A DNA stretch of 64,000 nucleotides from Iphinoe sp. HA4291-MV1 (GTDB lineage Bacteria > Cyanobacteriota > Cyanobacteriia > Cyanobacteriales > Nostocaceae), in contig JAHHHH010000006.1 in NCBI GenBank assembly GCA_019359415.1, positions 1-64,000 on the forward strand, given 5' to 3'. Of this stretch, positions 24,360 to 25,655 are shown one piece after another. A program made the translations under genes and the position numbers. Numbering within the stretch: position 1 is the stretch's first letter; each line of letters starts with the position of its first letter. The notes under the pieces are model-generated. The model was not told where the DNA came from. It saw nothing but the letters and a program-made list of their open reading frames with translations, and made no database searches.

Positions 24360-25655
24360 TCATTTTTTCACCCTAGCGAGCGCATCTTCAGCCGCAGCCT
24401 TCTCAGCATCTTTCTTACTGCGCCCTTTACCTTGTCCGTACTCTTTGTCTCCCACAAATACTTTAGCTATAAACTCTGGGGCGTGAGAAGAACCACCGAT
24501 TTGAAGTGTAACATACTTGGGTGGTGTTTGGGTGATGTTGCGTTGTACCCATTCCTGAAATCGATTTTTAGAGTCTACATTTGAGCGAAACTCCACAATA
24601 CTCTCAGGGACAGAATCAAATAGCGGTTCTACAACAGCACGCACTGCTTCGATATCATAATTATTGTCTAGGTAGTAAGCGGCGATGACTGCTTCAAAGG
24701 CGCTGCTTAGTAAATTGGGATTTTGGTAACCTCCTTCTAAAATTGCACCTCTACCTAAGCGCATTCTGCGATTTAAGCCAACCTCAGTTGCAAATTTTGC
24801 CAGTTGCTTTTCATCTACTAACGCAGAACGGCGACGTGTTAACTCATCTTCTTCCTTTTCTGGATAACGACGATAGAGGTATTCGCCGCTTAAAAAAGTC
24901 AGCAAAGCATCACCGAGAAACTCTAGGCGTTCATTGTGTTCTCCTTCTTGGGGATTTTCATGAACATAGGAACGGTGTGTAAATGCACGGCGTAAAAGAG
25001 AACTATTGTGAAAGCTTTGTTGTTTAATAATTTCAGCCAATGTCTCTGTTTTGGAGGCTTTTTCAACTTGCTTAGGACACAGTATTCCTAAAATTTCTTG
25101 CTTGTGCTGTTCTGCAACATTCGCCTCTGGTGCAGAGATAGACTTGAGAAGTCGAGTGATCGTGTCGAGGGTGCGATAAGTGTCCTCAACACAAAAGCGA
25201 GATTGATGCTTCCAAGTGTTGCTGGTTTCAATTAATTCACTGACTAAAGCACGTTCGGCATAACCTAATTTTTTGCTAAATACCTGATCCCACTGCTCAA
25301 TTATGACTTTTAATAAAGCAAAAACATCGTCACGTAGAATATCTTCTGGGTTAGGCTTTAAAGTTGAATTAAAAGATATATATGATAAAGCAATTGTTAG
25401 CCAATGTTCACCATAGACTTTTTGCATCTCCCTTTTTATATATGGGTGTAAACCTTGATTTAAAAGAGCTAAACCTCTGCTAACTTGTTCGTGGTTACTC
25501 ACAGCAATCTGTGTATTTAAAGTGACATTTTTCAAAGTAAACTCATCTCCCAGAGTCGCGCACGGGGGCTTCGTGGGAATTGGGATGGGAATTGGGAAGA
25601 CGTACCCATTCCCTTGCCCTTCTCCTATTGGAGCTTTTTGTTTGCTACTTTGCAT
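24360..25655 (-). CDS. rnc: Ribonuclease III with N-terminal HEPN_Swt1-like domain
   Basis: 431 aa against the usual ~225-230 for RNase III. The C-terminal part is RNase III: signature HNERLEFLGDA (~240-250), the second catalytic block LLSSAFEAVIAA and a dsRNA-binding domain (from about 360, ending GRSKKDAEKAAAEDALAR). In the second block the acidic residue equivalent to Asp114 of the E. coli enzyme appears as Ser, while the Glu is kept. Residues ~50-180 match the Swt1-type HEPN helical domain (VSRGLALLNQGLHPYIKREM, LGYAERALVSELIE, HQSRF, TYRTLDTITRLLKSISAPEA). The HEPN R-x4-6-H motif is changed to SNTWKH. The start is uncertain: the ATG at 25655 has GGGAG ten bases upstream, and a low-complexity PIPIPIP stretch follows it. 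Confidence 0.85.
   Translation of the reverse strand: MQSSKQKAPIGEGQGNGYVFPIPIPIPTKPPCATLGDEFTLKNVTLNTQIAVSNHEQVSRGLALLNQGLHPYIKREMQKVYGEHWLTIALSYISFNSTLKPNPEDILRDDVFALLKVIIEQWDQVFSKKLGYAERALVSELIETSNTWKHQSRFCVEDTYRTLDTITRLLKSISAPEANVAEQHKQEILGILCPKQVEKASKTETLAEIIKQQSFHNSSLLRRAFTHRSYVHENPQEGEHNERLEFLGDALLTFLSGEYLYRRYPEKEEDELTRRRSALVDEKQLAKFATEVGLNRRMRLGRGAILEGGYQNPNLLSSAFEAVIAAYYLDNNYDIEAVRAVVEPLFDSVPESIVEFRSNVDSKNRFQEWVQRNITQTPPKYVTLQIGGSSHAPEFIAKVFVGDKEYGQGKGRSKKDAEKAAAEDALARVKK

Follow-up and report, generated by a model that had tools for sequence, protein, structure and literature searches.

The stretch of DNA analyzed here (64,000 nucleotides of a contig from Iphinoe sp. HA4291-MV1, referred to below as the window) carries on its minus strand a gene in which a Swt1-type HEPN domain is joined to an RNase III nuclease domain and a double-stranded RNA-binding domain (dsRBD). 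The features of this gene, with residues numbered along the called protein (P0001), are as follows:

24360..25502, minus strand: fusion gene (HEPN_Swt1-RNase III-dsRBD) from its likely start codon, GTG (residue 52), to the stop
upstream end 25655 (ATG) or 25730 (TTG), minus strand: ORF of the fusion gene as called, with its earlier alternative starts
25134..25478, minus strand: Swt1-type HEPN domain, residues 60-174 (Pfam PF18731, E 1.2e-31; identical span in the genome search)
25206..25223, minus strand: HEPN motif S145-N-T-W-K-H150, replacing R-N-x-W-A-H (Arg lost, His kept)
24654..25007, minus strand: RNase III nuclease domain, residues 217-334 (Pfam PF14622)
24909..24935, minus strand: RNase III signature NERLEFLGD, residues 241-249 (E38, E41 and D45 columns intact)
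24690..24713, minus strand: LLSSAFEA, residues 315-322 (D114 column: S318; E117 column: E321)
24375..24569, minus strand: dsRBD, residues 363-427 (Pfam PF00035, E 6.4e-19)

The gene itself probably does not include the first ~50 residues of the ORF as called. Its seven full-length closest relatives match it only from residue 38-42 onward, and in six of the seven there are in-frame stops within the matched stretch; the open frames of these relatives start at about residue 38-50 (window numbering), and the alignment begins at A51-V52. Because the relatives match and align only from there and most of them carry stops before it, the GTG at 25502 is the likely start, although translation might instead begin at residue 42 (TTG) or, with the rare ATT codon, at residue 50. 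The extension at 25503-25655 is absent from the relatives and probably non-coding; it overlaps short repeats of the GGGAATTGGGA kind that were spotted by eye. An unconserved extreme N-terminus might also be taken as the mark of an error in gene calling or assembly that fused two separate genes, but this explanation is refuted by the relatives, since the whole fusion lies in one open frame in six of the seven congeners, and in the seventh (G005), where the gene is split over contigs, the piece L010 still spans the junction of HEPN and RNase III. A search for the same architecture, as proposed in the sequence-only reading of this DNA, also located the fusion in at least 33 of the 218 genomes of the window's family (counted by reading fetched loci whose candidates were picked by ORF length), and it is present in all eight genomes of the window's genus, in one case split over two contigs. 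The window genome, which is 95% complete, has a single PF18731 match, the fusion gene itself, and three RNase III genes: besides the fusion there is a paralogue of 240 aa (type B) and, at 162 aa, an ORF as short as a Mini-III. The ORFs that neighbor the fusion within 19-31 kb are presumably transport and metabolism genes, which they resemble.

The proposal that the N-terminus is a Swt1-type HEPN domain is borne out by the Pfam profile HEPN_Swt1, which scores 109.8 bits against a cut-off of 27.5 and covers all 115 of its positions on residues 60-174. By this profile the domain belongs to the Swt1-like branch of the HEPN superfamily; the R-x4-6-H motif of the superfamily is absent, Ser145 standing in the Arg column, so that the suspected loss of the catalytic Arg also holds. 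The Swt1-like family includes members that have been judged inactive (PMC3710099, in the part of the paper available). A structural model of the region is all-helical (pLDDT 87.3), as had been anticipated; the expected resemblance to a solved HEPN fold did not emerge, in that Foldseek against the PDB gave no match at E <= 0.001 (226 at E <= 10) and a profile search of solved chains with HEPN gave one match at E 0.66. The assignment of the domain therefore rests on its sequence and not on its fold. The full-length model (pLDDT 85.9) has as its best structural matches the RNase III enzymes of Thermotoga, E. coli and Aquifex, and its low pTM of 0.45 means that the arrangement of the domains is not fixed by the model.

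The sequence-only reading had placed the pairing of these domains outside the standard description of RNase III, although the pairing was not new. The fusion has been in print since 2013, when Anantharaman et al. (PMC3710099, in the available part) listed Swt1-like HEPN domains fused to 'RNASEIII and DSRBD (Cyanobacteria), active', with an example from Lyngbya, and termed such proteins two-headed RNases. The window protein agrees with these in domain order, in the Swt1-like type of its HEPN and in phylum; however, the two-headed RNases of that account are termed active, whereas a clade of Brasilonema and near genera, to which we return below, lacks the HEPN Arg in all 12 of its readable rows. 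With the common bacterial RNase III (TIGR02191; E. coli Rnc) the window protein shares the RNase III fold, the NERLEFLGD signature, the equivalent of E117 and the dsRBD, but it differs from Rnc in its added HEPN domain and in the Ser at D114.

Two further systems invite comparison. The HmaC/DUF499 ATPases, which belong to the Hma (Type-1 BREX-related) defense systems (PMC12839542, in the available part), have an N-terminal HEPN of the same Swt1 family, and seven HEPN rows from long ORFs align to that of the window at 37-45% identity; one of the long ORFs, L199, is HmaC by PADLOC and DUF499 by Pfam. In the Hma systems, however, the fusion partner of the HEPN is an AAA+ ATPase, encoded alongside a helicase and a methylase, while here it is RNase III; no PADLOC model matched the window protein at E <= 0.001, and this protein is not a HEPN-DUF499 ATPase beside a helicase and a methylase, the composition by which a Hma/BREX-related system would be recognized. 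Eukaryotic Swt1 is alike in pairing a nuclease with a HEPN domain, one judged possibly inactive and proposed to be an RNA sensor (PMC3710099, in the available part), but its nuclease is a PIN domain and not RNase III, which makes it a distinct fusion. The word HEPN is absent from the available part of a review of cyanobacterial RNase III (PMC10989914), and among the literature matches listed no title deals with the Brasilonema case or with an exchange of NYN and HEPN. The pairing itself is already known; what the present analysis adds is the apparently lost cutting site, together with signs of swapping of the front module between species. The window protein can be described as a known architecture in what appears to be a new state, with the HEPN motif dead and the fold kept.

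The C-terminal half is an RNase III with a dsRBD, as had been supposed: Ribonucleas_3_3, Ribonuclease_3 and dsrm (363-427) all lie above their Pfam cut-offs, and the NCBIfam RNaseIII equivalog scores 223 bits against a cut-off of 166. The active-site columns are named by E. coli positions, which were placed on the letters through the E. coli sequence; on the same footing, the E100 column presumably holds Ala. Columns E38, E41, D45 and E117 read E, E, D and E. The numbering follows PMC8708148 (in the available part). Three of the four carboxylates (E41, D45, D114, E117) are present, and the alignment upholds the earlier observation of a Ser, Ser318, in the D114 column. This replacement lowers the standing of the protein as a canonical RNase III and not as a member of the RNase III family, because unfused orthologues share the Ser. 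In a phmmer alignment to Drosha, the residue opposite S318 is N for the first of Drosha's two RNase III domains and D for the other.

Among 66 fused rows, the D114 column is N in 36, S in 21, D in seven and A in one, the remaining row (L044) being without the D114-E117 stretch, and columns E38, E41, D45 and E117 are intact in 62, with E38 replaced by N in two rows and by Q in one. The 41 unfused type-A rows divide into 28 with S and 13 with D (one a fragment), while D occurs in all eight type-B rows, which were kept out of the type-A counts. Genomes that bear the fusion added 15 unfused rows of the S type and 13 of the D type (one of each repeating an earlier gene), after the exclusion of four remote paralogues and a fragment. 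The unfused set used for the tree described next has 66 rows with 41 S and 25 D, in which one D gene is counted twice and one is a fragment. In an RNase III tree computed without the D114 column (ten name prefixes for duplicates or remote paralogues and six of the eight type-B rows removed; gene L165/L308 counted twice), the S of the window falls within a clade that unites 21 fused with 37 unfused rows (SH-aLRT 97). Since all 58 carry S, whether fused or not, S318 was inherited and is not tied to HEPN. The idea that the D114 change is coupled to the fusion is accordingly unsupported for the window's lineage, and the trees hold too few independent events to sustain it more widely, the average number of informative independent pairs being below one. 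A hint of such coupling outside the window's lineage comes from the tandem loci L155, L156 and L160, where N in the fused gene contrasts with D in the unfused gene next to it.

Nor does the change at D114 need to kill the enzyme, as the available parts of three papers suggest: the E. coli D114A mutant remains weakly active with excess Mg2+ (PMC8708148, Table 1), D114 alone among the four carboxylates makes no direct contact with Mg2+ (PMC9291653) and some class III enzymes have N instead of D in their first RNase III domain (PMC5357909). In Anabaena 7120, deletion of alr0280, which is one of two candidates (with all4107) for an RNase III of the D114S type, prevents an antisense RNA from depleting glnA mRNA (PMC11288750). 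One might nevertheless suppose that both heads have been altered on purpose, and that the fusion is a binder or sensor of double-stranded RNA with damped cleavage while the 240-aa paralogue does the cutting, in favor of which one could cite the 57 of 64 fused rows in which D114 is replaced by another residue (35 N, 21 S and one A) and the tandem loci just mentioned. We regard this as improbable given the intact remaining columns in nearly all fused rows, the constraint on the RNase III half, the residual activity of D114A and an association between D114 and fusion that is beyond the reach of the tree test.

The state of the HEPN catalytic loop varies among the relatives. R and H are both intact in 52 of the 65 readable HEPN-RNase III fusions, and the 12 rows that lack the Arg (seven from genus g1, three from g6 and one each from g175 and g62) make up the clade of Brasilonema and near genera; one additional row (L146) keeps R and has Y in place of H, and L010, which is ended by a contig edge, is also without R. 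When 25 positions that are at least 90% conserved across 49 other fusions (L146 and L170-L173 left out) are followed into the R-lost clade, 20 are retained in at least 10 of its 12 rows. The positions replaced in half or more of the rows, R145 (12 of 12), N146 (seven) and A149 (six), all belong to the catalytic loop; H150 and D110 are each changed in three. The frames of all 12 rows stay open across HEPN and RNase III. We read this as a probable loss of HEPN cutting in a domain whose fold was kept, under relaxed constraint.

PF18731 matches (E <= 0.001) were obtained for 42 of the 386 genomes sampled across the phylum and for 72 of the family's 218. Many of those outside the fusions are ORFs of ~1,100 amino acids, of which the one tested in full, L199, is the HmaC/DUF499 protein. 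A HEPN tree divides 66 RNase III-fused rows plus five others from 54 long rows, so labeled by ORF length, plus five others (SH-aLRT 98). In the RNase III tree, by comparison, fused rows are scattered and mixed with unfused ones. For these trees, duplicates L055 and L077 were removed throughout, rows with fewer than 150 residues of RNase III or 100 of HEPN were dropped, and L174 and L010 were used in the HEPN and the RNase III tree only, respectively. A single fusion inherited by descent alone is rejected in tests that were each made against a point-estimate tree, weak nodes included: the fused rows do not form one clade (AU p 4.9e-5; 27 fused among 68 rows), and for 26 fused proteins the HEPN tree and the RNase III tree are mutually incompatible, also when the set is reduced to 18 rows (p 0.002 and 0.006). 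Given the scatter of the fused genes and the conflict between the trees, HEPN has been lost from, and/or moved between, RNase III alleles. Patterns built from cyanobacterial rows found, among the best 80 of 208 contig matches across genomes, 25 RNase III fusions, all cyanobacterial by title; among viral contigs, one of 23 pattern matches encodes a relative of the HEPN query.

In the window's family, the slot before a type-A RNase III is taken by a fused HEPN or, often, by an NYN or HNH gene standing on its own. Of the 28 unfused type-A genes, 17 have an NYN gene (PF01936 in the one tested) upstream on the same strand, ending 60-293 bases before the RNase III domain; an HNH gene lies 46-99 bases before it in five, and six have neither. 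None of the 34 fusions (33 with upstream sequence) has either gene upstream. Outside the family the arrangement is not exclusive, NYN or HNH being upstream in five of 33 fused and 15 of 44 unfused rows, counts in which tandem copies are unmerged and some flanks are short. At the scale of whole genomes, strong NYN matches were found in 11 of 16 chosen for an unfused gene of this RNase III clade (five of the 16 also have a remote second fusion), and in none of 28 with the fusion in its place, three of which have weak matches and two of which (G006 and G007) additionally contain an unfused RNase III beside an HNH gene. On a 68-row tree, with L010 left out of the upstream count, there are on average four informative independent pairs in the expected direction and none opposite, with a median p of 0.125 that is not significant by itself.

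The RNase III DNA of the fused L112 is 95.7% identical to that of L018, which has an NYN gene, and both flanks of the two loci contain homologous pieces; L107 (fused) and L019 (NYN) present a similar picture at 95.9%, and L050 and L026 have HEPN and HNH, respectively, at a homologous site. In five of seven fused/unfused pairs the sequences become homologous again 4-7 bases into the RNase III domain, and they do so at 61 bases in L050/L026 and at 37 in the window's pair with L012. A broader interpretation, which we offer tentatively, is that of a modular cassette in which a constant double-stranded RNA nuclease, tuned by N or S at D114, is served from a 5' slot by partner nucleases that recombination swaps at an almost constant breakpoint, in the manner of polymorphic conflict systems; the Brasilonema partner would have become non-cutting and the constant enzyme would have taken over.

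The forces acting on the two halves of the protein were estimated as dN/dS (Nei-Gojobori, with codon bootstrap). For the seven genes of the window's genus, the value is 0.431 for HEPN (95% interval 0.315-0.576) and 0.141 for RNase III (0.098-0.199); with four more R-lost genes these become 0.374 and 0.098. Five groups with intact HEPN, of which the first three are from the window's family, gave 0.171, 0.177, 0.216, 0.284 and 0.504 for HEPN, and 0.094, 0.129, 0.159, 0.225 and 0.319 for RNase III, in a comparison where the last two groups have four and three sequences only and synonymous distances are unequal between groups. The raised HEPN rate is not unique to the dead clade, because the two small intact groups show it as well.

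A HEPN value of 0.43 would also fit a domain on its way to loss, and it might be argued that the HEPN of the R-lost clade is a dead passenger with no present role, whose end point is represented by some of the unfused RNase III genes of the family. The loss of H as well in three of the 12 rows and the mixing of fused with unfused genes, including the two nearly identical same-genus pairs, could be understood in this way. We consider such decay rather unlikely, however, since the 12 frames have stayed open, most of the conserved HEPN positions have been retained and the pairwise HEPN dN/dS values (0.25-0.65 for the 21 pairs within the window's genus) are all below 1. Moreover, no HEPN remnant was found in ~1 kb upstream of the unfused genes of the window's family, in a search of 52 unfused RNase III rows whose seven significant matches were all tandem neighbors or split or broken copies in family f2, and whose best match below threshold (E 0.032) is on a par with a reverse-strand control (E 0.04).

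The reading that we prefer, with a probability of roughly 60%, is that the window protein is a working, perhaps slowed, RNase III in which a catalytically dead HEPN domain has been kept as a module for binding or dimerization. Its C-terminal half, as part of a dimer, would cut double-stranded RNA; profile and model support the fold, and dimer and activity would follow those of the family. The Asp114-to-Ser change, a trait of a clade of cyanobacterial RNase III whether fused or not, most likely slows the enzyme or alters its metal requirement without killing it, to judge from the published mutants. In most fused relatives R-x4-H is intact, and the whole protein there is therefore probably a two-headed RNase. 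In Brasilonema and near genera the catalytic loop appears to have been lost while the fold stayed under weakened yet purifying selection, for which reason the HEPN of the window is probably a non-cutting module that might bind RNA or strengthen the dimer. Of the original suggestion that an RNA-recognition domain had been added to a possibly changed nuclease, the non-cutting N-terminal domain survives, whereas the change in the nuclease is uncoupled from HEPN and need not be fatal to it. If the preferred reading is correct, an RNA-processing enzyme has domesticated an RNase domain of the defense type as a component that no longer cuts, and close relatives show this domain in intact, dead and absent versions. 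That a fused HEPN alternates with a neighboring NYN or HNH gene would suggest that RNase III has a functional partner in filamentous cyanobacteria.

Several other fusions deserve mention. Genome G367 has two different HEPN-RNase III fusions, L043 and L076, of the S and N types, and in genome G777 the fusion L176 is broken by a stop in its HEPN part. Family f2 (L155, L156, L160, L163, L165 and L178) has arrays in which a fusion, or separate HEPN ORFs, is followed by unfused RNase III genes; D114 is kept in its fused L163 and L165 and in the fragment L178, but with N in the E38 column. The remote fusions L170-L173 of family f28, which keep D114, have the HEPN motif RNxHAH and show weak HEPN profile scores of 44-64 bits, possibly represent a separate fusion event.
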